Source of the DNA: a virus | DNA: 54,490 nucleotides | Virus record (IMG/VR): IMGVR_UViG_3300036861_000394 | Coordinates: 1 to 54,490 of that record | Direction: 5' to 3' (one strand) | In this document: positions 16,506-54,429 of the stretch, piece by piece | How positions within the stretch are numbered: the stretch's first letter is position 1 | Layout: every line of letters begins with the position of its first letter | Translations under genes and position numbers: made by a program | Notes under the pieces: generated by a model | The model's input: the letters and a program-made list of their open reading frames with translations, nothing else | What the model was told of the DNA's origin: nothing | The model's database searches: none

Positions 16506-16613
16506 TCAGCCCGCCCCGATGAAGAAACCTAGGCAGAAGATGAGTACGCCAACGCCCAGGATCTCAAGAGCGCCTATGACCATCTGGCGACGCACCCAGA
16601 TAGGATCATTCAT
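16506..16613 (-). CDS. Single-pass membrane peptide (35 aa)
   Basis: The ATG at 16613 overlaps the stop of the beta-helix gene (ATGA). Residues 11-33 are hydrophobic (MVIGALEILGVGVLIFCLGF). A short WVRR motif precedes the membrane segment. Unknown function; its coupling to a secreted protein suggests a role at the envelope. Confidence 0.55.
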   Translation of the reverse strand: MNDPIWVRRQMVIGALEILGVGVLIFCLGFFIGAG

Positions 16614-18061
16614 CGCTCGAATGCTCCAAGATCCGGCGCGCCATTCCGAGGGTTGCCGTCGAAGTCGAAGGGCAGCGCGTAGTCGGGATCGGCCCGGTCG
16701 ATCGCCGCGCTGCCGGCGTTGAGGTGGTAGTCGAAACCCGCGCGATCCACGAACAGCGGATCGGCTTCGAGGTTCTGCGTCCCGCAGCTTGTGTAAACAC
16801 CCTGCCCGTCGGAGAAATCGAGGATCAGATGGCCCGACGTATTTCCGCAGCGCGTCGTACTCGTGTCCCAGGCCAGGTTCGTGAATGCGCGGTTCATGCT
16901 CGCCGGGGGATCGGAGCCGGAGCCGTAGAGGCCATAGAGTTCTTGCTGTCCGTTGAGCGAGAAAGCCGAGATGTTGTTGCGGAGCCGCACGCCCGAGCAG
17001 TTGTTCTCGACGTAGATCCCGCGCCCGCCGGCAGTCGAGGCATAGGGAACGTCAACGACCGTGTTGCCGGTCACGATTACGGCGCAGGTCTTGACCGTTG
17101 AGGTGTCGGCGCGAACCTGGATGCCGAAGCCGTGCGGGTCGTGGTAGACGACGTTGTTCGCGACCATCCCCGAGTCGGCCTGGATGTAGAGGCACTGGCG
17201 CTGCGTCGAACCGTTGCCCCAGTCGTGGCAGCGGTTGCCGACGATGTTGATGTTCGTCGCGCCCGGGCCGACGAGGAAAGCGGTGATGTCGTGGCCGGTC
17301 GTCGTGCCCGCGTCGTAGCCCGCAAGGTCGTTGCCGATGACGTCGATATCGTGTGCGCCACCGACCCCGGAGATGTAGAAGGGCTGGCGCCCCGTGCCTG
17401 TCCATAGCGTCGGGGTCGCTTCGATCTTCAGGCCCTTGATGCGCTTGAAGCCGCCGGTTACTCGCAGAATCTCAGAGCTGGAGGCGGCGGCATGGAGGAT
17501 CGCCACGCCCCCGTAGCTCTCAAGCGTGATCGGCTCGGTAGCCGTACCGCTGGATGTCCAGTTCAGATTGACGTCGTAGGTGCCCGCGGTCGCTTCGATC
17601 CGGTTGCCTGCGACCGCCGTATTGATGCCGGTCTGCATCGAGCAGGGAACCGAGAGCGTGCAGGCTGAGCCCGAGCCGAGCGGGGCTACAAAGAGTTGCG
17701 GTCCGGTGGAGTCGGGGAGCAGCGGCGGAAGCGCCTGGCCAATCGGTGGCGGTGGAGGAGGTGGCGGTGGAGCAGGCGGAGGCGGTGGAACGGGGGGCGG
17801 GGGTGGAGGAGGCGGGGGTGGTATTGGCGGAGGTGGTGGAGGAGGGGGCGGTACTGGTTCGGTCTCACAGGCGCTCACCTCGTGGATAGCGGTGTGGATC
17901 TTGCTCAGCCGCGTACTCGGCGACCCGGACGAATGCCATGCCGTCTCGATGTTGGCGATCTTCTGGAGACAGGCGGCGTGAATCGGGTCGTGGTTCGCCG
18001 AGGCCGTGGGAAGGAAGACGAGCAGGGCGGCGCAGGCCGCGAGGGCGAGTATGAGACGCAA
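16610..18061 (-). CDS. Secreted polyproline right-handed beta-helix protein
   Basis: TTG start at 18061 with AAGGAG six bases before it. Residues 1-22 are a signal peptide (LILALAACAALLVFLPTASA). A helical, two-cysteine region (about 25-65) leads to a polyproline stretch (about 69-113). The rest (about 120-483) is a right-handed parallel beta-helix of pectate-lyase type: repeated short turns with N and G (DIDVIGNDLAG, NINIVGNRCHD, AVIVTGNTVVD, VRLRNNISAF) and a C-terminal DADPDYALPFDFDGNPR-like calcium-type loop. Such proteins bind or cleave surface polysaccharide. Export by the host, rather than assembly in the virion, is implied by the signal peptide. The active site is not assignable by eye. 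Confidence 0.75.
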   Translation of the reverse strand: MRLILALAACAALLVFLPTASANHDPIHAACLQKIANIETAWHSSGSPSTRLSKIHTAIHEVSACETEPVPPPPPPPPPIPPPPPPPPPPVPPPPPAPPPPPPPPPIGQALPPLLPDSTGPQLFVAPLGSGSACTLSVPCSMQTGINTAVAGNRIEATAGTYDVNLNWTSSGTATEPITLESYGGVAILHAAASSSEILRVTGGFKRIKGLKIEATPTLWTGTGRQPFYISGVGGAHDIDVIGNDLAGYDAGTTTGHDITAFLVGPGATNINIVGNRCHDWGNGSTQRQCLYIQADSGMVANNVVYHDPHGFGIQVRADTSTVKTCAVIVTGNTVVDVPYASTAGGRGIYVENNCSGVRLRNNISAFSLNGQQELYGLYGSGSDPPASMNRAFTNLAWDTSTTRCGNTSGHLILDFSDGQGVYTSCGTQNLEADPLFVDRAGFDYHLNAGSAAIDRADPDYALPFDFDGNPRNGAPDLGAFER

Positions 18062-18205: not shown

Positions 18206-18376
18206 TTAGGCGGTTCGCTCGATCAGAGCGTGTGCGTAATCGGCTTCGCGTAGTGCCAACTCTGCGCGCGGACGCTTCGACGACTCATAGCCGCAGGAAC
18301 AGACGACCATGAACTCCTGATCGCCGACTGCCTCCACCTTCTGCTCGTGGACCTTGCGCTTCTTTCCGTCTGGCAC
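18206..18376 (-). CDS. Small protein with a CxC motif (56 aa)
   Basis: The GTG overlaps the portal stop (TAGTG) and has AGGAG six bases before it. The product has a strand pair ending in FMVVCSCGYESSKRP and a helical C-terminus. The CSCGY turn is common in small phage zinc-binding proteins. Coupled to the portal gene. Confidence 0.65.
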   Translation of the reverse strand: MPDGKKRKVHEQKVEAVGDQEFMVVCSCGYESSKRPRAELALREADYAHALIERTA

Positions 18377-19791
18377 TAGCTCTCCTGTGGGGGTGGCGTA
18401 TCGGTCTGCTGGGCTGGCTGCGGATCTCCGGGCTGCCGCTCTTGCTCGATCGGGGGCAGCGGCTCGGGGGCTAGCTGCTCCTCTGCGTCATCGTCCTCAT
18501 CGGGCGCGCCGATTGCCTCGCGCGCAAACTCGCGCAGCGACTTGTCTGGTAGCACGGCCGCCGAGGCGACGAGCTTCGAGAGCGAGTCCGCAAACTCGGT
18601 CAGGTTGCGAGACTCGATGTCGTGGGCGACGAGCTTCGGGTATCGCTCGGCCGTGTAGTTGGCATCGACCAGGCGACGAATCTGATCGTCGTGCGAGTCA
18701 CCGATCTGGCGCGCGACCGCGTGCAGCGCGTCGTACCAGACCTCGGACTGCACATCTCCGGTTGCCCGGGCACCTGTCGACCCATGGCCGAGCTCGGCAA
18801 AGCGCGCGAGCACGTTGCCCTTGATCTCGCCGCGGCAGTATTCGAGCAGGTCGGTGAAGTCGGGGACGCCACCCGACGGGGAGGCGATCTCGAAGGTGAA
18901 GCCCTCGCCGCCGATCGTGCCGAGCGCCTTGGGGCCGGGGAAGACGAGATAGTTGAACTCGCCGGAACGGAGATTCTGAAGCATCTCCTCGATCCGGTCC
19001 ATCAGGGCGTCGTCATCCTTGGCCGATGTGGGGACGTAGGCGACCGGCGTCCCGACTCCGTGCCGCTCGACGGCAACGAGCGCCACCTTCTCGGTTAGCT
19101 CCTTCATCACCCATGCCTTGTAGGCGGAACGCAGGAGGCTGATCCCGGTTAGGTCGTCTCCCTCGCGCTCGTGGGTATAGACGAGGAGGGTCTCGGCGGG
19201 GATCTCGATGTTCTCGTAGTTCCCGTCTTTGTAGACCCTCTGGGTAATCGCGACCAACTCGCCGTCTTCGACGTTCCACTTGTAGATCGTCTCGGGAAGC
19301 CGTTGAGCGAAACGGCGCAGGGTCAAGAACTGGCGACGGGGGAGCTTGCGCGGCGTGCCGTCCGGCTCCTCTACCTCCAGCTCGTCCTCGACGACTTGCT
19401 CAACGCGCTCGAAGACCTGATGCCCGAAGGTGAGAAAGAGAAGAGCCTGGGTTAGGTGCTCGAGGAAGGGCTGCGCCGGCCACTCGAAGTACGAGCGGCG
19501 CACGAACTCCGCGACCTCCAGGTCTTCCGGTTCGTCGGAGGCTGCCTCGATCTCCCAGGTCGCGTTGCGGATCGGGGCGACGATGTGCTGGAGCGCCTCA
19601 CGGACCGAGGCATCCGATCGGCGCATCCTGTCGAAGATGCGGATAGCCGCTTGCCCACGCAGGTCGTTGTTGTACTCGGCCTGAACGAGCAGCCCGTCTT
19701 GGAGGATCGTCCCCGAGGCTCCACGCTCACGGCGGGGCTGCGGTATCTCGGCAGCGCGGATGCGCCCGATCTCGATGGGTCCGATCTTCAA
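18376..19791 (-). CDS. Portal protein, DUF935 (Mu gp29-like) type
   Basis: The 471-residue product has the DUF935 layout: a helical N-terminal region (QAAIRIFDRMRRSDASVREAL), a W-E-I-E strand, then LTQALLFLTFGHQVFERV, and a long C-terminal stem/wing. Proline- and glutamate-rich tail. The start is TTG 19791, chosen for an AGGAG five bases upstream; an upstream TTG at 19815 overlaps the metalloprotease-like gene and is less likely. The portal is the DNA entry ring of the capsid. Gene order (terminase before, protease and capsid after) fits. Confidence 0.85.
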   Translation of the reverse strand: MKIGPIEIGRIRAAEIPQPRRERGASGTILQDGLLVQAEYNNDLRGQAAIRIFDRMRRSDASVREALQHIVAPIRNATWEIEAASDEPEDLEVAEFVRRSYFEWPAQPFLEHLTQALLFLTFGHQVFERVEQVVEDELEVEEPDGTPRKLPRRQFLTLRRFAQRLPETIYKWNVEDGELVAITQRVYKDGNYENIEIPAETLLVYTHEREGDDLTGISLLRSAYKAWVMKELTEKVALVAVERHGVGTPVAYVPTSAKDDDALMDRIEEMLQNLRSGEFNYLVFPGPKALGTIGGEGFTFEIASPSGGVPDFTDLLEYCRGEIKGNVLARFAELGHGSTGARATGDVQSEVWYDALHAVARQIGDSHDDQIRRLVDANYTAERYPKLVAHDIESRNLTEFADSLSKLVASAAVLPDKSLREFAREAIGAPDEDDDAEEQLAPEPLPPIEQERQPGDPQPAQQTDTPPPQES

Positions 19792-19805
19792 GGGCGCTCC
19801 TATAG

Positions 19806-20375
19806 CTAGGGCCAAATACCGTCCCCGGCCGTCAAATCCCAGACACCATCCGGCGCGCAGCGCTGCGAATCGCGATAACGGGGCACTTCACGAATGAGTC
19901 GCCGATGATCCCGGTAGGCATAGCCAAGAACGAGCGCCGTCCAGCGAGCATCGAAGGGGCCGAACAGGCTCATCATCTCGTCGACCTGCTGGAAGGCGAG
20001 GCATTCGGTCTTCGCCTCGTTGGCCGTGCCGCGCTGATGGATCGCCTCATGGGTGAGAATGATGAGGCCGATTCCCTGCCGGACGGGCGTGACCTCCACC
20101 TGTCCCGACATCGCGCGGAGCGGGCTACAGAAGTGATCCTCGATCCAGACCGTATTGAGCCACCCGGACGAGGCTCCGCCACCCAATCCCCTGACGCAGG
20201 AAACCGTGACCGGGTGTCCGACGTAGCGGGTAGCTATTGCGCCTAACGTCGGACTCGGCCCATCGGCGGCAGCGGAGGCCGCGAAGACGAGGGCGAGCAG
20301 ATGCCCGCAGACGATGCAGCGCCAGGGCGGCGCTTTGCGGATCGGCCAGTGGCCGCGTAGTAGGCGGTGGATCAT
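19806..20375 (-). CDS. Secreted HExxH metallopeptidase-like protein B
   Basis: The 189-residue product starts at ATG 20375, overlapping the upstream stop (ATGA). Residues 1-37 are a basic segment plus a hydrophobic stretch ending in an Ala-rich signal cleavage region. Zinc site: HEAIH at 109-113, G at 116, N119-E120 and E124-C125. The order H-E-x-x-H-x-x-G-x-x-N-E-x-x-x-E-C is spaced exactly as in the plus-strand protein at 49068. An upstream cysteine (VWIEDHFCSPL, C83) also matches. The pair define one family of small secreted zinc proteins. Cell-wall or surface protein hydrolysis is a plausible role, not shown here. Confidence 0.7.
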   Translation of the reverse strand: MIHRLLRGHWPIRKAPPWRCIVCGHLLALVFAASAAADGPSPTLGAIATRYVGHPVTVSCVRGLGGGASSGWLNTVWIEDHFCSPLRAMSGQVEVTPVRQGIGLIILTHEAIHQRGTANEAKTECLAFQQVDEMMSLFGPFDARWTALVLGYAYRDHRRLIREVPRYRDSQRCAPDGVWDLTAGDGIWP

Positions 20376-20506
20376 CGGCGCCTGCCCTTCCGCCTCCGCC
20401 CTTGCGGCTTTGGGAACTCGCAGGTCCGGCATTGGACGACGCGCCCATCCGCGCTCACCCAGCCATGTCGCTTCGGTCCGGGCAGCTTGCCGCGACAGCG
20501 GCCCAT
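20372..20506 (-). CDS. Small basic CxxC protein (44 aa)
   Basis: The ATG at 20506 gives a 44-residue product, MGRCRGKLPGPKRHGWVSAD and so on, with CRTCEF and a strongly basic end (RRRKGRRR). Its stop overlaps the start of the secreted HExxH gene (ATGA). It is not a long frame but has clear zinc-knuckle or nucleic-acid-binding features. Function unknown. Confidence 0.55.
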   Translation of the reverse strand: MGRCRGKLPGPKRHGWVSADGRVVQCRTCEFPKPQGRRRKGRRR

Positions 20507-20514
20507 GCATCGCC

Positions 20515-20682
20515 TCATTGAGCGGCGATCACGCAGGCGAGGCAGCAGTACTCTCGCTCCTCATCGCCGACGAGGTGGAGGAACCAGCCTGCTTCGCGCC
20601 ATTCGTTCTCGGGATCGTCGCCGTTGAATGTCTCGCTGGCCGTGCACCATTCGCAGGTCGCCGTGATCGAAGCGATGGCCAC
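20515..20682 (-). CDS. Small zinc-ribbon protein (55 aa)
   Basis: A GTG at 20682 shares a base with the upstream TAG. The product carries CEWC near residue 10 and CCLAC near residue 48, a typical two-pair zinc ribbon. No further domain. Part of a chain of coupled small genes before the portal. Confidence 0.6.
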   Translation of the reverse strand: MAIASITATCEWCTASETFNGDDPENEWREAGWFLHLVGDEEREYCCLACVIAAQ

Positions 20683-20879
20683 TAGAATCCGAGATCCCGC
20701 CGTGGCCGACGCCGCTCGAATGTGATCGCCTCGTCCATGTAGATCTCGCCCTTGCGAAGCGTGACTGTTAGATCGCTCTCGGCCGGGAGCCACATCTCGG
20801 GCAGCTCGGCATCTGGCGGCTCGGCGACGTCGCTTGCATCGGGGGCGGCTTCGATCTCGCTCACGTCTTCGTCGGGCAT
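20682..20879 (-). CDS. Small acidic protein (65 aa)
   Basis: The ATG at 20879 has AAGGAG seven bases before it, so the upstream in-frame codons are left out. The first half is acidic and proline-rich (DEDVSEIEAAPDASDVAEPP), the second half is a basic-ended strand (LTVTLRKGEIYMDEAITFER). Function unknown. Confidence 0.65.
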   Translation of the reverse strand: MPDEDVSEIEAAPDASDVAEPPDAELPEMWLPAESDLTVTLRKGEIYMDEAITFERRRPRRDLGF

Positions 20880-20898
20880 GTCGGCTCCTTGTGGGGCT

Positions 20899-21021
20899 TC
20901 ACCCTTGACCAAGTTCCCGGTCCGCCCCAGGGACGATCTCTAGCTTCGATCCGCCCAAATACCGAGATACTTCCCAGCAACCATGAGACTCGCCAGCACA
21001 CATGGTCAAATCGCGTGTCAT
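20899..21021 (-). CDS. Possible small protein upstream of the acidic gene (40 aa)
   Basis: An ATG at 21021 gives a 40-codon frame that ends just before the AAGGAG of the next gene, as expected of a real gene. GAGGAG lies 14 bases upstream, rather far. An alternative frame from ATG 21028 is longer but runs into the next gene. The composition (ESHGCWEVSRYLGGSKLEIV) looks protein-like. Confidence 0.4.
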   Translation of the reverse strand: MTRDLTMCAGESHGCWEVSRYLGGSKLEIVPGADRELGQG

Positions 21022-21131
21022 CCCTCATATCGGACTCCTCTCAGGCGCGCTTGCCACGGCCCCCTCCATCTGCCGTGACGTGACAGCCTCCGAACTCAAG
21101 AGCTCTGGTGGGACTGTCTCCCTCTCTAAAG

Positions 21132-21203
21132 GGGGTCGCCCGGGACTTGCATCCGGCTCCACGGGTCCACAACCCGAGGGCTCGCTGCCTAGCCTTGCGA
21201 CCC
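21132..21203 (-). tRNA. tRNA-His(GTG)-like sequence
   Basis: A 72-base cloverleaf can be drawn on the minus strand: a perfect 7-bp acceptor stem (GGGTCGC with GCGACCC), a 4-bp D stem with GG in the loop, an anticodon loop TTGTGGA giving GTG, and a T arm. Weak points are A at position 8, one mismatch in the anticodon stem, an A-C at the last T-stem pair, G in place of T55, and no encoded CCA. It lies in a 270-base stretch with little else between terminase and the next gene. It could be a degenerate phage tRNA or a tRNA-derived remnant. Confidence 0.5.
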
Positions 21204-21214
21204 GTTAGAAAACC

Positions 21215-22750
21215 TTAGAAAACCTTTTCCTGAATCCCCGCCGAGATCGCGCGGGCCGACTCCGGTCGTTCTTTGTCACCGTTCTGAGATCCGCCCCACT
21301 CCCGCGGCATTCGCAGAAGGGCCTGGCTCATCGCATCGACTTGGTCGTCATGCGTGGCGTTCGGGAACGCCGCCGCCTCGTCGATTAGCTCTTGCACCCA
21401 GGATGGTGTTCGTCCTGAATCGGGACCCTGGCCGTCCGCGGCCGCATGACCAGGAACGTAGACCTGCCCGGCCTCTAGCTGTGGTGCGATCGCATGGGCG
21501 CGCTGAGTCTTGTCGCCCTTGACGACGGCGGGGATGATTCCCTGAATCTCGTTCCGCATTGAGGCAATGATCTCCGGCCCGTTGGCCGAGTTCTCGACGA
21601 GAACCGAGTGGGGGATATTGGGCAGATAAGCACGCGCCCACTGGCACATCTGCCGTATCTGTGTCTTCGTCTCGGGAAGATCGAAGCGTCCGCGCACCGA
21701 GCGGAGCAGGTAGCGGTTCGCGCCGATCCCGCCCCAGAGCTGGCCGACGACGTAGTCCGAGGTCTGCTTGTCCTTGAAGGCCGTGTCCCAGGAGGAGACG
21801 AGCCGCTGCGGGACGATGCGCGAGAAATCAGGCTCCGAGACTGTGGCCGGGTCGAAGTAGCGCCACCAGGCCCGCTTGAGGATGCCGCCCTCGGCCGGCG
21901 CGGGAAGCTGCTGGTACTGGCCCGCATAGCCGTAGGAGCCGAGGTCGATCTTGACCGACGCGATCTCGGGGTCGCCCTCGCGATCGGGCCAGAGTAGCTC
22001 CCCCGGCTCTGACCGGCGGTCTGCGGGCCAGACGAAGGGATGGGAAGGGCTGAACTCGGCCGGGAGGCAGAGATGCTCCCAGCCCCGCTCCTTGGCGAGC
22101 AGATGCCCCGTTACGTCGTCCTCGTGGAGCCGCTGCATGATGACGACGATAGCGCCGGTTCGCTTGTCATCGAGGCGCGAGGCGAGCTTCTGGTCGAAGA
22201 GGCGATTGGCCTTCTCGCGCTCGATGTCGGAGAGGGCCTGCTCGGGATCGAGCGGGTCATCGACGACGAGGATATCGCCGCCCTTGCCAGTCGCGGTGCC
22301 GCCGAGCGAGGTCGCGACCATGTGCCCGCGCTGATCGTTCAGGAACTCAGTCTTGACGTTCTGGTCGGAGGCGAGGGTGAAGCGGTCGCCCCATCGTTCC
22401 TGGAACCAGTCCGACTGAATAACCGTGCGTCGATCGACCGAATGCTTGGTTGCAAGTGACTGCGAATAGCTTGCGAAGATCCAGCGCGACTCGGGCCGAT
22501 GCGTCCAGGTCCAGGTTGGCCACATGACCGATACGCAGATCGATTTCATGTAGCGGGGCGGGATGTTGACGATCAGGCGGAGCAACTCGCCGCGCGAGAC
22601 GGCCTCCAAGTGCTCGGCGATTACGTCGATGTGCCAGTTCCGCAGATACTCGGTTGTCGGCTCTAGCACCGGCCAGGCGCGGGGGATGTAATCGGCGAGT
22701 GCGCGCTCGCAGAGCTCGGCCTCGACCTCGGCCAATGTCAGGTCAGACAC
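21215..22750 (-). CDS. terL: Terminase large subunit
   Basis: The 511-residue product carries an ATPase domain with PPRYMKS (Walker A-like, about residue 65-71) and GGDILVVDDPL (Walker B), then a RNase H-like nuclease domain with SSWDTAFKDK (first acidic residue), and THDDQVDAMSQALL (last acidic pair). This motor cuts and packages DNA. The GTG at 22750 overlaps the small subunit stop by 8 bases. The long in-frame extension upstream overlaps the small subunit and is a shadow. Confidence 0.95.
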   Translation of the reverse strand: MSDLTLAEVEAELCERALADYIPRAWPVLEPTTEYLRNWHIDVIAEHLEAVSRGELLRLIVNIPPRYMKSICVSVMWPTWTWTHRPESRWIFASYSQSLATKHSVDRRTVIQSDWFQERWGDRFTLASDQNVKTEFLNDQRGHMVATSLGGTATGKGGDILVVDDPLDPEQALSDIEREKANRLFDQKLASRLDDKRTGAIVVIMQRLHEDDVTGHLLAKERGWEHLCLPAEFSPSHPFVWPADRRSEPGELLWPDREGDPEIASVKIDLGSYGYAGQYQQLPAPAEGGILKRAWWRYFDPATVSEPDFSRIVPQRLVSSWDTAFKDKQTSDYVVGQLWGGIGANRYLLRSVRGRFDLPETKTQIRQMCQWARAYLPNIPHSVLVENSANGPEIIASMRNEIQGIIPAVVKGDKTQRAHAIAPQLEAGQVYVPGHAAADGQGPDSGRTPSWVQELIDEAAAFPNATHDDQVDAMSQALLRMPREWGGSQNGDKERPESARAISAGIQEKVF

Positions 22751-23150
22751 GCTCGGCTTTGGCCAGCAGCCTTTCCAGGTCGCGCAGCTCATCCTCGGAG
22801 AGATTGGCGAGGCGCCGGGTGCGCGGGACCCTGACCTCGTGCTCGACCTTCGCGTTCCGGCGATAGAGATCGGAGCGGCGCGCGTTGAGGACGGCGCAGG
22901 CGGAGGCGACACGGGCTGCGTTCGGAGTCTCGCGCCCAACGGCCATGTCCAAGAGTGACTGCTCGACCATGTCCAGGCCCGATTGGTACGCGTCCGCATA
23001 GGCGACGGCAAACTTCTCGTCCTCCTGGCGGAGTCGTAGGATCGAGCGACGGGATGTAGCTGCGGCTCGTGCGGCCTTTTCGGGCGAGTTGCCATCGCGC
23101 AAGTGCTGGAGGAAGACCTCGCGCTGGTCGGTGGTAATCTTGCTAGCCAC
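22743..23150 (-). CDS. terS: Terminase small subunit
   Basis: The 135-residue product has an N-terminal HTH-like DNA-binding region (FLQHLRDGNSPEKAARAAAT and following SRRSILRLRQ), a central oligomerisation helix, and a charged C-terminus (LSEDELRDLERLLAKAERV). Its place immediately before terL is the rule. The ATG overlaps the upstream stop. Confidence 0.85.
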   Translation of the reverse strand: MASKITTDQREVFLQHLRDGNSPEKAARAAATSRRSILRLRQEDEKFAVAYADAYQSGLDMVEQSLLDMAVGRETPNAARVASACAVLNARRSDLYRRNAKVEHEVRVPRTRRLANLSEDELRDLERLLAKAERV

Positions 23151-31274: not shown

Positions 31275-32125
31275 GCTGCGCTCCGGGTTTGGGCTAGGTG
31301 CTGCATCAGCTGGTGGCCTATGAGCTCGGTGTAGGCTGGCGGGATTGCTTGCGACAGTTCGCGCCAGTTGGCCCAGGGCATCTCGAACGCTTCGCGTGCC
31401 ATCGCTAGACCTTCTGCTGCGCGAAACTGCCCATTCTCTACCGAGGTGGCACGCCTCCGGTCGCGTGCGTGGTCGCCGTAGATGCCGAGCGTAGGGCGAC
31501 CACTGTGAGCGCAGGGAGGAACGAGCAGTGGCCAGTTCGTCTCGAAGAGACGGTGGCGGCGGATCTCGTGCGTTGCCGTGCCGAGCACAGTTGACGAGCC
31601 GCAGATTTGTACCGGGCTCACCATCGGAGCTCCAGGAACGTTTTCGATGACGTATGGGAGGCTGAGCTCAATCAGTAGCTCCCGCGTCGGTGTCAGAAGA
31701 TCCTCGTGCTCGCCAGCGTTCCACATTGTCTTGAGATCGGTGAAGGCCTGGCAGGGTGGCGAGGCATGAATTGCAGCGAAGTCCTTGACTTCCAGAGCCG
31801 GCTTTGTAGAGTCGAAAGCGACACCGACCAAAGGAGCGGCATGCCTCGCACGATCCTCATCCACCTGAACATCGAAGCCCCGGATACCGACAGCCGCACC
31901 GCCGACGAGATCGCCGACGCGATCCTCGCCAAACTCAGCAGAGAAGAACTTGCCATCGTCGCTCCACTGGCTGAGGAGGTCTAGCGCGTCAGCCTGTACG
32001 AACTCGAACGGATACCTCGGCTGCGGCTTGATGTCCACGCCCACGACCTCGAAGCCCGCGCGGCTGTAGCCCATCGCTGCGCCGCCAGCTCCGCAAAAGA
32101 GATCGAGGAGGCGAGGTTTACTCAC
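31271..32125 (-). CDS. C5 cytosine DNA methyltransferase with an internal insert
   Basis: The 284-residue product has motif I DLFCGAGG (residues 8-15), catalytic PPCQ (124-126, C125), ENVPG motif (161-165) and RRHRLF (motif VIII). It methylates cytosine at C5, protecting phage DNA from host restriction or acting in regulation. Residues about 53-115 between the Rossmann strands and motif IV are atypical, and coincide with a plus-strand gene lying antisense in the same DNA. The GTG start (GTGA overlap) has GGGAG eight bases before it. Confidence 0.9.
   Translation of the reverse strand: MSKPRLLDLFCGAGGAAMGYSRAGFEVVGVDIKPQPRYPFEFVQADALDLLSQWSDDGKFFSAEFGEDRVGDLVGGAAVGIRGFDVQVDEDRARHAAPLVGVAFDSTKPALEVKDFAAIHASPPCQAFTDLKTMWNAGEHEDLLTPTRELLIELSLPYVIENVPGAPMVSPVQICGSSTVLGTATHEIRRHRLFETNWPLLVPPCAHSGRPTLGIYGDHARDRRRATSVENGQFRAAEGLAMAREAFEMPWANWRELSQAIPPAYTELIGHQLMQHLAQTRSAA
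31785..31812 (+). promoter_or_regulatory. Promoter of the nested antisense gene
   Basis: TTGACT at 31785-31790 and TAGAGT at 31807-31812 are separated by 16 bases. Both match the vegetative sigma consensus of actinobacteria (TTGACA, TANNNT) well. The pair lies inside the C5 methyltransferase gene, on the other strand, directly before a ribosome binding site and an ATG. Confidence 0.65.
31841..31984 (+). CDS. Small protein nested antisense in the C5 methyltransferase gene (47 aa)
   Basis: AAAGGAG sits six bases before the ATG. The product opens MPRTILIHLNIEAPDTDSRT and continues ADEIADAILAKLSREEL, a short beta strand then a helix. Its amino acid make-up and codon use look genuine, and from memory it resembles small proteins of actinobacterial phages, though I cannot check. 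It has its own promoter. It is read opposite to the methyltransferase, whose frame stays open through it. Confidence 0.7.
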   Translation: MPRTILIHLNIEAPDTDSRTADEIADAILAKLSREELAIVAPLAEEV

Positions 32126-32643
32126 GGCTTGCACTCCCATTGCCCCCATCTAGGCTTATGAGCTCGGACTGCGCGCGCCACCGTATACGCCGCGGTAAAC
32201 ACGTTCGCGTACGGATCGAAGACGCTAAAGCCCGCTCGCCCGAACGGCCCGTGCTCAAACATCGGACCTTCCTGCATCACGCCCCGGTAACGACCGTTCC
32301 GGGCTAGCGGGTAGAGGTGCGACTCGCACGAGCCGACGCTGACGAGCTCAGCCCGCGGCACGCCCCAGATCGTCGAGGCGAGGGAGATCGCGTGGAGGAC
32401 ACTCGGACGCCAGTAGCGGCGAGCCTCGCGCTGCAGCCTCCGCACTCGCCGCCCATTGATCCTCGCCGAGCGCCGCGCCTTCCGAAGCTTCACCCGCAGG
32501 ACGCGATTCTCCCGCTCGAGCGAAGGCTCCCGCTGTGCCCTGACCGCGTGGATGATCCGGTCGAAGCCGATCGGCGGGCCTCCCTTGGCGCTGGAGACGA
32601 AAAGGAAGAGAGCGGTCAGGCAGGAGGCTAGGGCGAGCTTCAT
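32122..32643 (-). CDS. Secreted transglycosylase-like protein (173 aa)
   Basis: ATGA overlap at 32643. Residues 1-22 are a signal peptide (ALASCLTALFLFVSSAKGG). A basic coiled region (45-85) is followed by a lysozyme-like/transglycosylase end: GSCESHLYPLARNGRYRGVM and QEGPMF, with GFSVFDPYANVFTAAYTVA later. The E of CESHLYP fits the catalytic glutamate of lytic transglycosylases. It lies far from the lysis cassette, next to the methyltransferase genes, so host cell-wall remodelling during early infection is more likely than lysis. Confidence 0.7.
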   Translation of the reverse strand: MKLALASCLTALFLFVSSAKGGPPIGFDRIIHAVRAQREPSLERENRVLRVKLRKARRSARINGRRVRRLQREARRYWRPSVLHAISLASTIWGVPRAELVSVGSCESHLYPLARNGRYRGVMQEGPMFEHGPFGRAGFSVFDPYANVFTAAYTVARAVRAHKPRWGQWECKP

Positions 32644-32960
32644 GGCTGATGCCGTATTCGGTCCCATGCTTTTTCAAGGGGTGATAGCTGGCACTCGCAG
32701 GCTGCGGTTGTACGCACGATTCTCGGCTCACCTTCGGGATGGAGAATCCAGCCAGTGGGAGCGAGGTCCGGCCTACGCTCGTCGGCGATTAGCGAGAAGC
32801 ACAGCGGACAAAGGAAGGCCCACTCATCGACGCCACCTTGCCGAACTACCGCATTCCAGACATCGTGCGGCGCAAACCAGACAGGATAGTCGCGATCGCA
32901 GAGATCACAGAGAAGCTCGCGGTGTTCCCGCCCCTCTGCCATCGCATCCCCTGGGGTCAC
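32640..32960 (-). CDS. Zinc-ribbon protein with CxxC pairs (106 aa)
   Basis: The start is GTG 32960, overlapping the methyltransferase stop (GTGA); ATG 32942 is an alternative. CDLCDRDYPVWFAPHDVW and FLCPLCFSLIADER form two CxxC pairs around an aromatic core. Similar small proteins with a C-x-x-C ... FAPxDxW layout occur in actinophages. Unknown function. Confidence 0.65.
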   Translation of the reverse strand: MTPGDAMAEGREHRELLCDLCDRDYPVWFAPHDVWNAVVRQGGVDEWAFLCPLCFSLIADERRPDLAPTGWILHPEGEPRIVRTTAACECQLSPLEKAWDRIRHQP

Positions 32961-36277: not shown

Positions 36278-37393
36278 CTACTCCTCCACCATCGCCCTCA
36301 ACGCAGCCTCAAGGTCTGCCGTCGTCAGATGCGCATACATGGCCGTCGTCCGAATGTTCTTATGGCCGGCGAGCTTCCGCGCGAGCTCCAGGTTGCCCGT
36401 GGCGCGCAGCAGGTCGGTGATCGCGCCGTGCCGCCCCCGATGCATGTTCTGGCCGCTCGTCGTGCCCTTATCAACAAGGCCTGCGTTCTCTAGGCAGCGA
36501 TACCACCAGAGGTGCATCCGCTTCCCGGAGGGCTCGCGGTCGTGCTTGCGGCTCGTTGTCCAGGCATAGCCCTGCATCGTTCCCGGCTCGATCTCCAGGA
36601 TCTCGGTTGCCTCTTCGATCTCTACCTTCCGCCGACGCGTGTCCGTGCGCCAATTGATGAGGTAGTCGTCGGAGCCGAGGCGCAACTCAAGCTGCGTCAG
36701 TCCGAGCTCGCGCCAGAATTCTTCCTCCGGGATAGGCAGCGGATAGATACGCCCGCCCTTCGTGAAGACGGTGATCTCTCGCTTCTCAAAGTCGAAATGC
36801 TTGAACTGGCAAGCGGCGAGCGCGCCGCGCCGTAGGCCGTAGCGAAGAACGAGGACGCAGCCCAGGCGGTCAGGAAGGTAAGCCTGACCGGCGATCATCG
36901 CTGCCACGAACTCGTGGGAGAAGGTCTCGATCAGGACATCCCGCTTCTTCGGCGAGGAGAGGGCTCGGGCCGGATTGCCGCGCATCTTTCGCTCGCGCAC
37001 GGCCCAATCGAAGAAGTCAACCCAGACCGAGCGCACCTTCGCGCGCGTCCTGCCGGAGAGGTCGCCCCAGTAGCGATCCCAGCATTCGCGCAGGCGATCA
37101 GTCCCGTCCGGCGGCTCGAAATCGGCGAGGCCGAGCTCGGCATGGAAGAGAACTAGGCGCGCGAGGATCGCCTCGTAATCGACAAGCGTCAGGTCAGCTG
37201 CGCCCCATTCGTTCTTCTTCCAGCGCAGGTAGAGACCGACCTCTGGCCCGGTCGCGGTGTTTACCCGGTAGCTCTTGTCCTTCAGGGCTTCTCGGATGAT
37301 CCTCGCCGCTTCCCCTACGGTCAAGGCGGAATGGTCAGGCATGTCCCCCCATTGGGCGGCGGTCAAGTAGGTCTCGGTGGCGAGAGCGGTCAA
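36278..37393 (-). CDS. int: Tyrosine integrase
   Basis: The 371-residue product has the catalytic set: R188/R189 in YGLRRGAL, K212 in TKGG, H318-R321 in HRGRH, H344 in GHKNIRTT and Y353 in AMYAHL. An N-terminal DNA-binding core domain with helices (ALSSPKKRDV) precedes it. It would recombine attP with a tRNA attB. The start is TTG 37393 (TTGA overlap with the upstream stop, GGAAG five bases before). Confidence 0.9.
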   Translation of the reverse strand: MTALATETYLTAAQWGDMPDHSALTVGEAARIIREALKDKSYRVNTATGPEVGLYLRWKKNEWGAADLTLVDYEAILARLVLFHAELGLADFEPPDGTDRLRECWDRYWGDLSGRTRAKVRSVWVDFFDWAVRERKMRGNPARALSSPKKRDVLIETFSHEFVAAMIAGQAYLPDRLGCVLVLRYGLRRGALAACQFKHFDFEKREITVFTKGGRIYPLPIPEEEFWRELGLTQLELRLGSDDYLINWRTDTRRRKVEIEEATEILEIEPGTMQGYAWTTSRKHDREPSGKRMHLWWYRCLENAGLVDKGTTSGQNMHRGRHGAITDLLRATGNLELARKLAGHKNIRTTAMYAHLTTADLEAALRAMVEE

Positions 37394-37641
37394 GACACCC
37401 GCTTCCCGGTGCCAGGCGGATCGCCCTTTTTCCACAAGGTCATTTCGCGCGTCAGCACATCTACGTCGTCGGGGCTGCGAAGGATGTGCTCTGCGACAAG
37501 ATCGAAGACGGCTGCCACGGCGTCCTCGTGGCCTTCATCGTCCGCATCAAAGAGAGCGCGCTTCTCCGCTTCGCTCCATCCTTCGATGACGCGGCTCAGA
37601 GCAATGCGGCCGGAGACTTCAAGCTCGACGTAGACGCTCAC
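37390..37641 (-). CDS. Small protein upstream of the integrase (83 aa)
   Basis: GTG 37641 overlaps the upstream stop (GTGA). The product has strand-rich start (MSVYVELEVSGRIALSRVIE) and acidic, helical centre (DADDEGHEDAVAAVFDLVAE). Linked to int by TTGA. A recombination directionality factor is possible but not supported by a motif. Confidence 0.55.
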   Translation of the reverse strand: MSVYVELEVSGRIALSRVIEGWSEAEKRALFDADDEGHEDAVAAVFDLVAEHILRSPDDVDVLTREMTLWKKGDPPGTGKRVS

Positions 37642-41821: not shown

Positions 41822-42006
41822 TGTTCTAGCTTCCCGCCACCTGCCCCATGGATAAACGCGCCCGTTAACTTCAGCGCCTGGGCAACCTCAAAGCCTTCCT
41901 CCAAGCATCCCTGGAAAAGATTCCAGGCAAGAGTCGCTGCGCTTCGTATCCCGGCGATCGCTTCAGCGGTCTCAATTGGGTCCCCTCTGCGCCCTTCATC
42001 TGTCAT
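41818..42006 (-). CDS. Small helical protein (62 aa)
   Basis: The start is ATG 42006 (ATGA overlap). Helical (TAEAIAGIRSAATLAWNLFQ and EVAQALKLTGAFI). Unknown. Confidence 0.6.
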   Translation of the reverse strand: MTDEGRRGDPIETAEAIAGIRSAATLAWNLFQGCLEEGFEVAQALKLTGAFIHGAGGGKLEQ

Positions 42007-42281
42007 AGCTGATGCCAATGCCAACAGGCGTAGCGGCTGTACCCGCAGCCCCAGATCCAGCCGTTATCCGGCTCGTAATGGCCGCTGCCGTAGTGGTAGG
42101 CGAAGTGACAGACCATGAGCGCGGGGCCGTAGTAGGCCCGCTGCCCATCCGCGTATTGGTCGCAGTAGTAGCCGCCTCCGTCGCCGTCTAGCGATGGGTA
42201 GTCGGGAGCTCGTGCAGCGCTGACCGTCGCTCCGATCAGGAGTAGGGCCGTCAGGACTGCGAGGGCGAGGGTGAGCCTCAC
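42003..42281 (-). CDS. Secreted small aromatic protein (92 aa)
   Basis: GTG start abuts the stop of a 10-residue leader. Residues 1-22 are a signal peptide (LTLALAVLTALLLIGATVSA). The mature part is rich in Y, W, H and C (GGGYYCDQYADGQRAYYG, GWIWGCGYSRYACWHWHQL), so it probably folds with disulfide bonds outside the membrane. Possibly a surface-acting or superinfection-exclusion protein. Confidence 0.65.
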   Translation of the reverse strand: MRLTLALAVLTALLLIGATVSAARAPDYPSLDGDGGGYYCDQYADGQRAYYGPALMVCHFAYHYGSGHYEPDNGWIWGCGYSRYACWHWHQL

Positions 42282-46629: not shown

Positions 46630-47415
46630 TTAGAGCTTCTCGATGATGATGCTGCCGCCCGGCCCGATCTTCTTGAACAGGCGGGCAACTAGAACGCCCG
46701 GATAATCCGTGTGTCCCTGATCGACCGTGCCTGCATCTCTCACGGTGTAGGACGCCTTCTTCTCGGGTTCAGGCGGAGGAGGCGGCGGGGGCGGGGCGGG
46801 CACCTTCGTGCGAGCGATGCGTAGGAGTTCGGTCCAGCGGTACTGTCCCGGGTCCCAATGAGAGTTGCCGGGAATCTCAACGTGGCCGTACCAACCCGCG
46901 ACGCGGCCCCACTTGCCAGAATGGCGCCGACTGAAATTCCTCGTCGCCCAGGGGAGCGGAGGCATCGCGTCCGGGAACGGGTGCAGGAGTGGGATTCCGG
47001 CAGCGCCCTTGAGCGTCGCGAGCAACTCGGCGAGCGCGTCGAGCGTGCGCGTGTCGAACTGATAGAGCGTCGTCTTCGAGTAGCCGACGACCTCGATCTG
47101 CGCGCGGCAGACCCGGTTTGTCTCCGGGAAGCCGGACGGATGCTCAACGGCAGCCGCCATCTTTCCGAGCGGGATGAGTTGGGCGATCCGGCCTAGCCCG
47201 ACGAGGAAATGGGGCGCGTAATGCTCGCGGAAGACCTGGAGCGCGGAGGCCCAGCCGCCCTCAGTCGTGTGCAGGATTCCGGCAGGCGGAGCCCCGAGGT
47301 CTACGTCGTCGTTCGGATGCGGGCAGGGGATCTTCTCGATCCGGTACGGGCCTGCCCTATCGAGCCACGCGCGCGCGGGCGCACCGCCGTCGATGACGGC
47401 AAGGTTTGGAGGCAT
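46630..47415 (-). CDS. Endolysin, N-acetylmuramoyl-L-alanine amidase
   Basis: The 261-residue product has an amidase_2/PGRP core: LHTTEGGWASAL with zinc ligand H49, then GHVEIPGNSHWDPGQ (H178, H186) and KWGRVAGWYG. It cuts the amide bond between N-acetylmuramic acid and the peptide. A polyproline linker (about 212-220) leads to a C-terminal domain (YTVRDAGTVDQGHTDYPGVL) of unknown type that may bind the wall. AGGAG precedes the ATG. Confidence 0.85.
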   Translation of the reverse strand: MPPNLAVIDGGAPARAWLDRAGPYRIEKIPCPHPNDDVDLGAPPAGILHTTEGGWASALQVFREHYAPHFLVGLGRIAQLIPLGKMAAAVEHPSGFPETNRVCRAQIEVVGYSKTTLYQFDTRTLDALAELLATLKGAAGIPLLHPFPDAMPPLPWATRNFSRRHSGKWGRVAGWYGHVEIPGNSHWDPGQYRWTELLRIARTKVPAPPPPPPPPEPEKKASYTVRDAGTVDQGHTDYPGVLVARLFKKIGPGGSIIIEKL

Positions 47416-47453: not shown

Positions 47454-49040
47454 CTAGCCCGTGACGCCGCGGGTGGCCGCTGCGAGCCGAGCGAGCAAAA
47501 TATCGGAGCGCCTCGTCTGGCCCTCGATCTCGAGCACAACGCGTCCCGTTTCGAGTTCGGCCTCGGTGCCGATAATGTGGAACAGGGTCTCTCCGTCACG
47601 GCCGGACTGAAAGAGGTCTGTCTTGGGCAGATCGGAGACGAGGACATTCTCGCCCGAGCGAATCTGGAAGGCGGGAAGGGACGGTCCGTTCGCGCGTTTG
47701 ACGGGAAGCATCGCGGGCAGAACCAGCCGTCCTCGGATCGCCGGATATGACCCCTGATCCGTCACAAGACGCGAAGAAAGCTGCGCAGAGGTCGAGCTCG
47801 TCATCGGAAAGCCGGGAGCAACGAGCACGTCCTGGGACTTGCCCTGCTTGACGTAGGGGTTAGCCTGTGTTGTGGAGGTAGACGATGCTTCCTTGTCTCG
47901 CTGCTCGGCTGCATCCATGTAGAGAACGTAGACCGTCTTCGCGAGTCCGTCGACCGATGAGGTGATCTCGGTTCCCGATTGAAGATCGGCGACTCGCGTC
48001 AACCATTGCGGCTCGTCGCGATTGGCGGTCTTCCAATCGAAGCGGCCGTCTTCCCAGATCGACCACTCGCGCGCATAGAAGCCCGCGACCTCCTCGACAA
48101 CCGACATCGACGACGAACGGACAGCACGCTCGATCGTTTGAATCGTGAAATCGGAACCGTCCTCGATGATCCCGAGCGTGAGACCAGGCACGAGCGCGAT
48201 GAGATCGCGCAGGATCGATCCGCCATAGAAGCCGCCCGCTACATCCTCGCCAAGGGAGGTGCCGAGGATTCGGATGTTCAGGAAATCACAGAACTCGGAT
48301 GCGATCGGCGTCTTGTTGACTCCTGAGTTGTTCCAGCCACAGAAGCCAATCGAGTCTCTTGAGGCACCGGAGACCGACTTCGCTCCGCTCGTAGTGAAAT
48401 CCGTAGAGGCCAGGCTGCCAGAGCTGTAGGAGTTCCATGTCCAGACGCGAGCTGCCGCAAGATTGGCGGGGCCGATCGTCAGATCGAAAAGAATCGTTTG
48501 GACCGAGATGTTCGGGCCAATCAACGCGAGAGCCGCGCCACCCGCGCTGGTCGCGACCACCACTCCATTTCCGGCAACCCGGACGCCGATCTTGGTCAGA
48601 TCGCTAATATCGACTTGACCGATCGAGACACTCAGATCGGCCTTGGCGAGATTGCCGATGCCCGTGAAGGGCATATTCGCGCCAAGCCCGCCGGGTGCTT
48701 CAGCCCAGGGGAGATCGCGTTTCGACCAGATCCGACGGACGCTGACCTCCTCCAGTTTGCGCCGGAATCCGAAGCAGGAAACGGATACGCCCCCGTCCGC
48801 CGGGCGCAGCGTCACGTCTTCGACCTGCCCCTCCCAGATGACAAAGGTATCGAGGACGATGCGGACTGTGGCGAGATGGGGGATCTCACGCTTCCAGCGT
48901 CCGGCATCGCCGGGGAGCTCGAACGAGCATGCGCCGAAGCCGCCGATCGCGGCCGTCGTCCAACGTAGGCTACGTTGCAAGGGGGTTAGGCGCAGGGGTG
49001 TTGAGCCGGGGCGGCCGATTGCGACTTCGAGCGGGATCAC
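47454..49040 (-). CDS. Minor tail protein (528 aa)
   Basis: GTG 49040 has AGGAGG five bases upstream. The start MIPLEVAIGRPGSTPLRLTP with FELPGDAGRWKRE and VIWEGQVEDVTLRP resembles the hub/baseplate-type minor tail proteins of siphophages (distal tail with a lysozyme-like or tail spike domain). It lies between the Dit-like gene and the endolysin. Function is assigned by position. Confidence 0.7.
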   Translation of the reverse strand: MIPLEVAIGRPGSTPLRLTPLQRSLRWTTAAIGGFGACSFELPGDAGRWKREIPHLATVRIVLDTFVIWEGQVEDVTLRPADGGVSVSCFGFRRKLEEVSVRRIWSKRDLPWAEAPGGLGANMPFTGIGNLAKADLSVSIGQVDISDLTKIGVRVAGNGVVVATSAGGAALALIGPNISVQTILFDLTIGPANLAAARVWTWNSYSSGSLASTDFTTSGAKSVSGASRDSIGFCGWNNSGVNKTPIASEFCDFLNIRILGTSLGEDVAGGFYGGSILRDLIALVPGLTLGIIEDGSDFTIQTIERAVRSSSMSVVEEVAGFYAREWSIWEDGRFDWKTANRDEPQWLTRVADLQSGTEITSSVDGLAKTVYVLYMDAAEQRDKEASSTSTTQANPYVKQGKSQDVLVAPGFPMTSSTSAQLSSRLVTDQGSYPAIRGRLVLPAMLPVKRANGPSLPAFQIRSGENVLVSDLPKTDLFQSGRDGETLFHIIGTEAELETGRVVLEIEGQTRRSDILLARLAAATRGVTG

Positions 49041-49055
49041 GCGACCTCCTGCTGA

Positions 49056-49061
49056 TACACT
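49056..49061 (+). promoter_or_regulatory. Extended -10 box for secreted protein A
   Basis: TGATACACT ends six bases before ATG 49068, with no ribosome binding site between. The distance is that of leaderless actinobacterial promoters (TANNNT, 6-8 bases, start codon). It lies in the 27-base divergent gap. Confidence 0.5.
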
Positions 49062-49067
49062 TCGGAT

Positions 49068-49517
49068 ATGGGTCGCGCAGGCATCGTGTTTCTAATCGCC
49101 TTTGTCCTAGTAGGATCAGCATCGGCCGCCACGTATCGCCCTGGTTTCAGCCGGGCAACTGAAGCGGCGGCGTACTGTTTGACGGCTTCCGAATGGGTCG
49201 CTTTTGCCGCAGACCCCTGGGATGGGGGCTACTACTTGCCCGAAACACAACAGGTATTTCTGAATCCATGGGACTGCCGCGTTCTAGATCACCGAAAACG
49301 AGCCCGCCCGTATGAACTCATTCCTGCTGTTTTTACGCTTGCACATGAGCGACAGCATGTTCTTGGCGTTCTGGACGAAGACGAGGCGGATTGTCAGGCG
49401 GGGCGTACTCTTCCGCTGATCGCCCATCGCCTCGGAATTCGTTTTCGTACGCGAGACCTCCGCGCCTTTTTCAGCAACCCACCAACAGCGGCGGAATGCC
49501 GCCCTCCGATCTCTTAG
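49068..49517 (+). CDS. Secreted HExxH metallopeptidase-like protein A
   Basis: The 149-residue product has a signal peptide (residues 1-20, AGIVFLIAFVLVGSASA), a mature part with C37, C70 (VFLNPWDCRVL) and a zinc site HERQH (93-97), then G100, D103-E104 and D108-C109. The order H-E-x-x-H-x-x-G-x-x-D-E-x-x-x-D-C is identical in spacing to the minus-strand protein at 19806. It is on the strand opposite the tail genes, with its own -10 box, and fills the space between the minor tail and Dit-like genes. Probable moron. Target unknown. Confidence 0.7.
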   Translation: MGRAGIVFLIAFVLVGSASAATYRPGFSRATEAAAYCLTASEWVAFAADPWDGGYYLPETQQVFLNPWDCRVLDHRKRARPYELIPAVFTLAHERQHVLGVLDEDEADCQAGRTLPLIAHRLGIRFRTRDLRAFFSNPPTAAECRPPIS

Positions 49518-51010
49518 ATACCGCGGGCGAAGGCAAAGCGAGGTCGATAGCTAAGGCTCGCAAACGCCTGAAGGGGACCTGAATAGATAAGGGGTTCACT
49601 TGTTGTGGCGATGCGTTTGCGAGCCGCCGCAAAGAGATCGAGCTGGATGGTGCTGCCCCCAACGAGCGGGAGTTGACCTCGGTAGTAAAGATGGGGATTT
49701 GCATAAGGGGTATTGGTTGGTGCTCCGACTCCATCTCCGGAGAGATACATGCGACCATTGGTATCTGCATGAAACCAGGTCTGGACGTAGTTCGCGGCGT
49801 CGGTGATCGTGGGCTGAACCAGTCCGCGCGGCATCACTCCGGCTGGTGCATCTAGAGGCAAAAGAAAAACCCCGCCGAGCGAGACAATCGGTGTCCCCAC
49901 GCCTACATTGGTCGTTGCGGGACTCGCCCAAATGCGAATGTCGGAGCGAGCCGTAATGCCAGAGCCAATGATAGGAACAGCAAGTTCGCCTAGATCCAGC
50001 ACCGTGAAGGCTGGAGAGGGCTGGGCGCCATAGCCACCTGGAGCGCCAGAGGCAACGGCGGGAGCGATTGTGGCAATCGGAGCTGCGCTCGCAAGCGCAA
50101 TCCCCGCTCCGATAGGGGCGACATCGGCCGATAAATACCAAGGGAGCAGCTGGCTCGGGCCAATGCGCGCTAAAGCGAAGATTCGATGGCGACCCCGGAA
50201 GGCTGGTTCAAGGGCAGTGGCTAGCTGGATCTGCGCGGCTACTTGCCAAGTCGTTACCGATGCATAGATGTCGAGCGCCTGCGAACCGGGAACGAATGGC
50301 TGGCCAGTAAGTGTTCCCGCCAAAATCCTAACTATGCTTCCAGCGGGCCAATGGGCGGTGAAGCTGGGCCGCCCGGCGAGACTCCACATCAAAGCATCGG
50401 GTTGCCAATTAGCGCCGCTCGCCGGATACCCAGTCGCCGCCGTTGGGGCGATGTGCAATTCGCCAATACCGGGCACGTCTCCGAGTATGCTGCCAGCGCT
50501 AAAAGTGAGTTTGCCCGGCAGACCGACCGAGGCCGCCGACGCGAGGATGATCTCGGTCGGCAAATAACCGAACGGCTGCGGGCCGATGTCGAGCTCCAGC
50601 GTCCCGAGCCGAACTCCGATCTCCTGATGTCGAATCTTGTAGTCCGGCTTCCAGCGGCCCGAGAGAACGTCAAAACGAACGGCGGCCGTCGCCTCCGCTG
50701 GCAGAATGTCTACATAGGCACCGCCGGGACGCGCCGCTAGCCGGAAGTTCTGCTCCCACTTCTGGACGCTCCGGGCGGTGATCGGATCGCCGACACCCGA
50801 GGGGACGAGAAGCGGGAAGCGCATCGTCCGCGGTCCGATCGACTCGAACGCGAACTGGCCTCCGTCGGCAGCCGGACTCTGTGCGTATTGCGCCTCCATC
50901 CACGAGTCGCCGAAGTCCGGCCCATCCTCGGCGCGAATGAAGGAGGCGAGCTCGTAGGTGCTTCCGCCCGGGGAGGTCAGGACGTAGCTATCGTCACCGC
51001 CGAGTCCCAT
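49514..51010 (-). CDS. Distal tail protein, Dit-like (498 aa)
   Basis: It directly follows the tape measure gene, where the distal tail protein lies. The first part has SPGGSTYELASFIRAEDGPD and PRTMRFPLLVPSG, as in siphophage Dit proteins. The rest is beta-rich (many G, A, P, V). It links the tail tube to the tip. ATG abuts the upstream stop. Confidence 0.75.
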   Translation of the reverse strand: MGLGGDDSYVLTSPGGSTYELASFIRAEDGPDFGDSWMEAQYAQSPAADGGQFAFESIGPRTMRFPLLVPSGVGDPITARSVQKWEQNFRLAARPGGAYVDILPAEATAAVRFDVLSGRWKPDYKIRHQEIGVRLGTLELDIGPQPFGYLPTEIILASAASVGLPGKLTFSAGSILGDVPGIGELHIAPTAATGYPASGANWQPDALMWSLAGRPSFTAHWPAGSIVRILAGTLTGQPFVPGSQALDIYASVTTWQVAAQIQLATALEPAFRGRHRIFALARIGPSQLLPWYLSADVAPIGAGIALASAAPIATIAPAVASGAPGGYGAQPSPAFTVLDLGELAVPIIGSGITARSDIRIWASPATTNVGVGTPIVSLGGVFLLPLDAPAGVMPRGLVQPTITDAANYVQTWFHADTNGRMYLSGDGVGAPTNTPYANPHLYYRGQLPLVGGSTIQLDLFAAARKRIATTSEPLIYSGPLQAFASLSYRPRFAFARGI

Positions 51011-53893: not shown

Positions 53894-54085
53894 CTAACCT
53901 GCCTTCTTGCGCTCCCACTCGGAGCGTGCCTGCGCGTTGCGGCGCTGGATGTGCCGCTTGATGGCGAGTCGTTGCCACTCCCGGAACTCGGGCAGCGTGA
54001 TCCGCCGCCAGTAATCAGGCGGGAAGCGGAACTCGTCTACGAGGATTGCGAGCCACTCGACCGCTTCGATCGTTTGGCTCGCTTG
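53894..54085 (-). CDS. Frameshift extension of the tail assembly chaperone (G-T type)
   Basis: In the frame one base back from that of the chaperone gene, an open frame runs EWLAILVDEFRFPPDYWRRI and on to ERKKAG and stop at 53894. No start codon is needed if the ribosome slips -1 near the chaperone end (stop at 54037). Slippage in this place, yielding G and G-T proteins, is nearly universal in siphophages. The boundary given here is approximate; no canonical slippery heptamer is seen. Confidence 0.7.
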   Translation of the reverse strand, partial: QASQTIEAVEWLAILVDEFRFPPDYWRRITLPEFREWQRLAIKRHIQRRNAQARSEWERKKAG

Positions 54086-54429
54086 GGAGGGTCCGGCTCT
54101 TCGCCCTCGGCCTCCTGGCCGAAGTTGTATTGGCGGAGCAGTTCCGCGACGAAGTGCTGGACACCGATGACGCCGAAGGGACTGGCCTTAATGTTGGGAT
54201 CGCGCATCCGAAGGAGACTCAGTACCTCTTCATCCAATTCCCGGAGGATCTCTAGCCCGATCGCGTCCGCCTCTTCCTCGTCTGACCCCTCGGCCCGCTC
54301 AAAGAGCGAGGCGATCTTAAGAATCAGTTCGAGTGGCGGATCTCCGGGTGCAACAAAACGCTGCCCCCCGGGCATCTCAAACGTGAGATCCTCGGGGAGC
54401 AGCGCTCCGAGCTTGATGATTTTTGCCAA
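54037..54429 (-). CDS. Tail assembly chaperone
   Basis: The 130-residue product (TTG 54429, GGAG seven bases upstream) lies between tail tube and tape measure genes. It is acidic and helical (LELILKIASLFERAEGSDEE, LGLEILRELDEEVLSLLR-like). It ends with a basic stretch (KRAKRSKRSSGS) that is followed, after a -1 shift, by the extension. Chaperones of this kind coat the tape measure before tube assembly. Confidence 0.8.
   Translation of the reverse strand: MAKIIKLGALLPEDLTFEMPGGQRFVAPGDPPLELILKIASLFERAEGSDEEEADAIGLEILRELDEEVLSLLRMRDPNIKASPFGVIGVQHFVAELLRQYNFGQEAEGEEPDPPKRAKRSKRSSGSQSS

Follow-up and report, generated by a model that had tools for sequence, protein, structure and literature searches.

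Two accessory genes of a temperate phage encode predicted exported HExxH proteins of a widespread, mostly actinobacterial family with a proposed gluzincin-like site

The 54,490-base IMG/VR virus record analysed here (the window) carries two related genes, copies A and B (Table 1), both of which are accessory genes. The probable reading is that they are carried by a temperate phage and encode exported, compact, gluzincin-like zinc peptidases of a widespread but uncurated bacterial family. They are best read as captures from actinobacteria, and we infer their activity, substrate and expression.

Table 1. Coordinates of copies A and B, their motifs and surrounding features in the window
Feature	Position	Strand	Remark
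Copy A, 149 aa, ATG start	49068..49517	+	exact ORF
A zinc-site motif, H93-E94-R-Q-H97-V-L-G100-V-L-D103-E104-D-E-A-D108-C109	49344..49394	+	
A upstream motif FLNPWDCRVL, contains second conserved cysteine C70	49257..49286	+	
TACACT (TANNNT), weak -10-like hexamer, no -35 match	49056..49061	+	6 nt before ATG of A
Insertion with A between two tail genes	49041..49513	.	473-bp gap between minus-strand tail genes
Conserved 528-aa tail gene in divergent orientation to A	47454..49040	-	start codons 27 bp apart
Conserved 498-aa tail gene	49514..51010	-	stop overlaps stop of A
Copy B, 234-aa ORF	19806..20510	-	overlaps portal start by 10 bp
B zinc-site motif, HEAIHQRGTANEAKTEC	20001..20051	-	
Accessory stretch between terL and portal, B plus one or two small ORFs	19816..21214	-	1,399 bp
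Portal protein	18376..19815	-	52-54% identity to portal of relatives G778 and G779
Terminase large subunit (terL)	21215..23095	-	
Integrase	36278..37435	-	phrog_1, E 3e-28

Both proteins contain the site HExxHxxGxx[DN]Exx[AT][DE]C at exact spacing, read in A as HERQHVLGVLDEDEADC, together with an upstream [FW][LI]xxxxCxxL motif that takes the form WIEDHFCSPL in B. A DNA pattern for the zinc-site motif matched the window twice (49341-49394, plus strand, and 20001-20054, minus strand) and none of 100 shuffles. The original prediction that the two genes are related and share both motifs holds. A and B align directly over ~100 residues (E = 0.006). On a profile from which both copies had been excluded, A scored 46.7 bits and B 77.3 bits, and the best of 500 motif-preserving shuffles on the host-only profile reached 32.8 (A) and 42.8 (B). 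Because both outscore these shuffles, A and B are members of the family, B more clearly than A, and chance sharing of the motif was rejected on the same scores. Both also look exported, as had been predicted, with a signal-like hydrophobic segment in each: residues 4-20 in A (maximum mean hydropathy 2.57 at residue 4, 15-residue window) and a segment with a maximum of 2.21 at residue 65 in B (again over 15 residues). The exported domain of B begins at about residue 84, and the true start of the gene may lie further inside the ORF. Small ORFs with signal-like N termini can also be seen at 42003-42281 and 32122-32667 (both minus strand), so the phage may export several proteins.

The family has more than 110 homologues in the bacterial genomes searched. 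With a corrected motif pattern, at least 120 matching stretches were found in bacterial genomes and four in viral contigs; the pattern matches L011, L112, L075 and L124 were excluded as unrelated or doubtful, and after removal of unrelated or truncated matches the alignment comprised 116 rows (114 proteins plus A and B). A and B satisfy the family motif HExxHxxGxx[DNS]Exx[AT][EDN]C and have the family cysteines C1 (VxVxC), C2 (CxxL) and C4 (near the C terminus). These three were not specified in the search pattern, and their conservation extends to 114-115 of the 116 rows. The cysteines of A are C37, C70, C109 and C144, and C1, C2 and C4 of B are C105, C128 and C218. All four are found in 123 of 134 distinct sequences, ten others being fragments or having unaligned ends; in one member among the 134 (L121), C1 and C4 are lost together and C2 and C3 kept, a single case that suggests disulfides C1-C4 and C2-C3. 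An N-terminal or upstream hydrophobic segment is present in 96 of 108 host members, as expected for a membrane-anchored exported domain. Two of the excluded matches, in a Brevundimonas MAG (L075, 4776-4829, plus strand) and a viral contig (L124, 4999-5052, minus strand), have an AHECAHxxGxxNExxADC site within a different surrounding frame, suggesting from this second type of protein that the compact site may be more widely shared.

Within the motif, H, E, H, G, E and C are invariant in alignment A3, whereas at residue 10 Asn occurs in 58 of the 116 rows and Asp in 50. Since Asn is found there as often as Asp, residue 10 is not expected to be the third ligand and the invariant Glu at position 11 is the candidate; we read residue 10 as a putative helix cap and Glu11 as the presumptive third ligand. 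A metzincin site with D103 as ligand was rejected because of the 58 rows with Asn, and C109 as a metal ligand was rejected because it is conserved alongside three other cysteines. The original prediction had raised the question whether the motif Cys lies at the metal; the conserved set is four cysteines rather than one, and C109 is more likely to lie in a disulfide. Of the E104/E120 pair that it also named, the second residue does not exist, residue 120 of A being His. In the proposed mechanism, H93 and H97 of HExxH and E104 of the glutamate helix (ExxA/T) would hold the zinc, E94 would activate water and D108 would support the zinc site, while disulfides C37-C144 and C70-C109 would brace this small extracytoplasmic domain.

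Pfam, NCBIfam and PHROG models gave no convincing match to any member, PADLOC gave no match and a PDB sequence search nothing relevant; the libraries searched hold no name, function or structure for the family. The claim that the proteins have no other recognisable domain agrees with the searches of these curated models. The idea of a new small family holds in so far as it lies outside curated families, but the family is not specific to phages and is common on actinobacterial chromosomes. In AlphaFold2 models made with the family alignment (pLDDT 83.0 and pTM 0.78 for A, 90.6 and 0.87 for B), the HExxH of A (73-77 in modelled-chain numbering) closes helix 61-78 and the invariant Glu (84) begins helix 84-101, which also holds C89 (C109 of the full chain); B has the same arrangement with helices 59-75 and 82-98. 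As far as secondary structure goes, the suggested fold check puts HExxH and E104 in neighbouring helices, with E120 dropping out of the comparison. The glutamate-helix step is ExxA in A and ExxT in B, with the Glu opening the next helix in the models at a spacing far shorter than usual. Foldseek searches of PDB and BFVD (viral models) at E <= 0.001 gave no match for the predicted A and B folds, so it is the motif and the order of the helices that argue for peptidase activity.

Across bacteria, profile A3 found members in 72 of 299 sampled Thermoleophilia genomes (up to four copies), 27 of 247 Actinomycetia genomes (the class of Cellulomonas) and 4 of 229 Gammaproteobacteria genomes (the class of Legionella), examples being L110 from Thermoleophilia, L054 from Cellulomonas composti and L012 from Legionella quateirensis. 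In 50,697 phage records and 72,556 plasmids, tblastn returned chance-level matches only, and the members L125, L110 and L101 had no match in the same records. Scanning viral contigs with A, B or A1 as single queries turned up no confirmed relatives. The only members found in viral contigs are L125 and one gene represented by L122 and L123, which come from different metagenomes and have near-identical surroundings. A portal scan of viral contigs gave no match, yet the relatives identified by way of the tail gene do have portal homologues; such pattern-based scans overlook relatives, which makes the family's rarity in viruses an estimate. Judged by sequence, the family is a widespread bacterial one, mostly actinobacterial and rare in phages, and this phage is unusual in having two copies. 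Host members are chromosomal single genes, and their gene neighbourhoods showed only local synteny within clades and no conserved neighbour hinting at a substrate.

The nearest phage relatives, L156 and L157, share 41-42% identity in the 528-aa tail protein. The tail genes that flank A are 1 bp apart in L156 and leave no space for another gene in L157, and terL and portal are separated by 10 and 20 bp in the two relatives compared with the far longer stretch that includes B in the window, so the empty sites place A and B at two separate insertion sites. No family member was found elsewhere in the available sequence of L156 and L157. By gene content, with an integrase, the phage is temperate. 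Copy A is antisense to the tail operon and, as predicted, divergent from a tail gene, and this orientation and the close spacing of the start codons leave its reading as a moron well supported. The GC3 of A (0.53) is below that of its neighbours (0.64-0.83), and that of B (0.75) is not lower than in surrounding genes. The original prediction of a moron suits A, which is antisense, missing in both nearest relatives and low in GC3 in a phage with an integrase; the putative expression in the lysogen is not transferable to B, which is co-directional with terL, portal and head genes.

The host is probably actinobacterial, with the distribution of the family and the nearest relatives of B (L101 and L103) pointing to Actinomycetota; portal relatives in Thermoleophilia were found in only 2 of 399 genomes, at 29-36% identity. 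The record appears to be cut between 255-1262 (probably the major tail protein) and a tail chaperone-like gene at 54037-54429, and the tape measure of L156 is preceded by a chaperone-like gene. This is probably a near-complete, circularly permuted genome. Elsewhere in the window, an HNH-endonuclease-like gene (15630-16103, plus strand) opposes minus-strand genes in the structural module and is possibly also inserted. A 1,073-aa gene, apparently a glycosyltransferase-methyltransferase-glycosyltransferase fusion (3851-7072, minus strand), lies inside the same module. The secreted protein of 483 aa encoded at 16610-18061 (minus strand), which combines a long Pro tract with a repetitive, beta-helix-like region, has no PHROG match.

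Leaderless actinobacterial promoters have a TANNNT -10-like hexamer near the ATG. The TACACT before A would suit a leaderless transcript, and a sigma-70 scan at A detected no promoter; of the leaderless-type promoter originally proposed, the hexamer is present and the scan gives no backing. Given its antisense orientation to the tail operon, A would most naturally be expressed while that operon is silent. Copy A might have a promoter of its own that is active in the lysogen, where the protein could trim an exported or surface protein of the host, and such trimming might change the envelope, for example by blocking superinfection, or help the host. Copy B runs in the same direction as terL and portal and overlaps the portal start, so late expression is probable; it may be produced with the head genes, late in infection.

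This arrangement of B, together with an endolysin gene (46630-47415) 1.6 kb from A, would also fit a role of both proteins in lysis or virion assembly, as late exported zinc enzymes that open or process the cell envelope on release, or process virion proteins. Such a role appears unlikely, since A runs against the late operon, both genes are missing from the two nearest relatives, whose remaining head and tail module is kept, and host members are single genes on chromosomes that show no recurring lysis neighbours; it is possibly likelier for B than for A. It is rather improbable that the domain, whether zinc-binding or just retaining the motif, is a disulfide-braced exported binding or inhibitor domain and no peptidase. 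E94, the catalytic residue, is unneeded for metal binding and yet invariant in all aligned members (though fixed by the search pattern), against which stand the lack of a fold match to solved peptidases and the very small size of the domain, with a short loop between its two helices.

Capture of the two genes from hosts has its own competitor, in which A and B are paralogues duplicated within the phage lineage; this is possible, if doubtful. A single clade of A and B is not rejected by the tree (p-AU 0.666), in which both are long branches that limit its reading on their origin. Their identity is only 20-24%, however, GC3 differs (0.53 in A vs 0.75 in B) and they fall into different length classes: B carries a host-like C-terminal tail, DLTAGDGIWP, close to that of L101 and L103, whereas A ends at C4 like the phage members L122 and L125 and is shortened relative to host members. 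Capture from hosts remains the preferred reading, possibly as two separate events. As a more tentative extension, this may be a new, very compact family of zinc peptidases (HExxH-x6-E, two disulfides) of the actinobacterial surface, captured twice by the phage to remodel host surface proteins, for example to exclude competing phages. An unnamed exported family present in roughly one in four of the sampled Thermoleophilia genomes, and having a minimal-zinc-peptidase-like site, would be a defined target for biochemistry. Two copies in one temperate phage suggest usefulness to the prophage, which offers a simple entry to function through lysogeny and superinfection assays.

Among known systems, gluzincins are defined by an HExxH active-site helix and a glutamate helix with ExxA (PMC6414381). 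As in gluzincins such as M48/M56, the models of A and B have an HExxH helix followed by a candidate glutamate helix, with a putative third-ligand Glu and Ala/Thr three residues on. The family differs in that only 6 residues separate the Glu from the second His (HExxH-x6-E), a link that is usually much longer in gluzincins, and no sequence or fold match between the two was detectable. DUF3810 (PF12725), the one faint link to a curated family, weakly matched 9 of 36 members (best 8.9e-5), and a profile comparison gave a probability of 71% (E 3.7e-5) over the active site only. Six Bacteroidota DUF3810 proteins have the same HExxHxxGxxxE spacing, e.g. HEMAHQIGFASESECNF, with an ExxA-like step at the active site, but DUF3810 proteins are ~360 aa long and without the four-cysteine frame; membership was rejected because A, at 14.5 bits, falls below the curated cut-off of 28. 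Snapalysin M7, a metzincin, has the motif HExxHxxGxxD, and the family shares with metzincins the Gly of the metzincin turn, placed three positions past the second His, but its residue at the metzincin third-ligand position is Asn in half of the members and never His. Like phage morons such as the ant morons of P22-like phages (PMC2629481), A and B are extra genes between conserved morphogenetic genes and missing from relatives. They differ from these in that a single genome carries a pair from the same enzyme-like family at separate sites, and in that no terminator was seen at A. With the unnamed actinobacterial and gammaproteobacterial HExxH family, A and B share the motif, the four cysteines and the order of helices; host members are usually membrane-anchored N-terminally and have a longer C-terminal end (GGxLD...WP), which is shortened in A and of which B shares the tail ending in WP.
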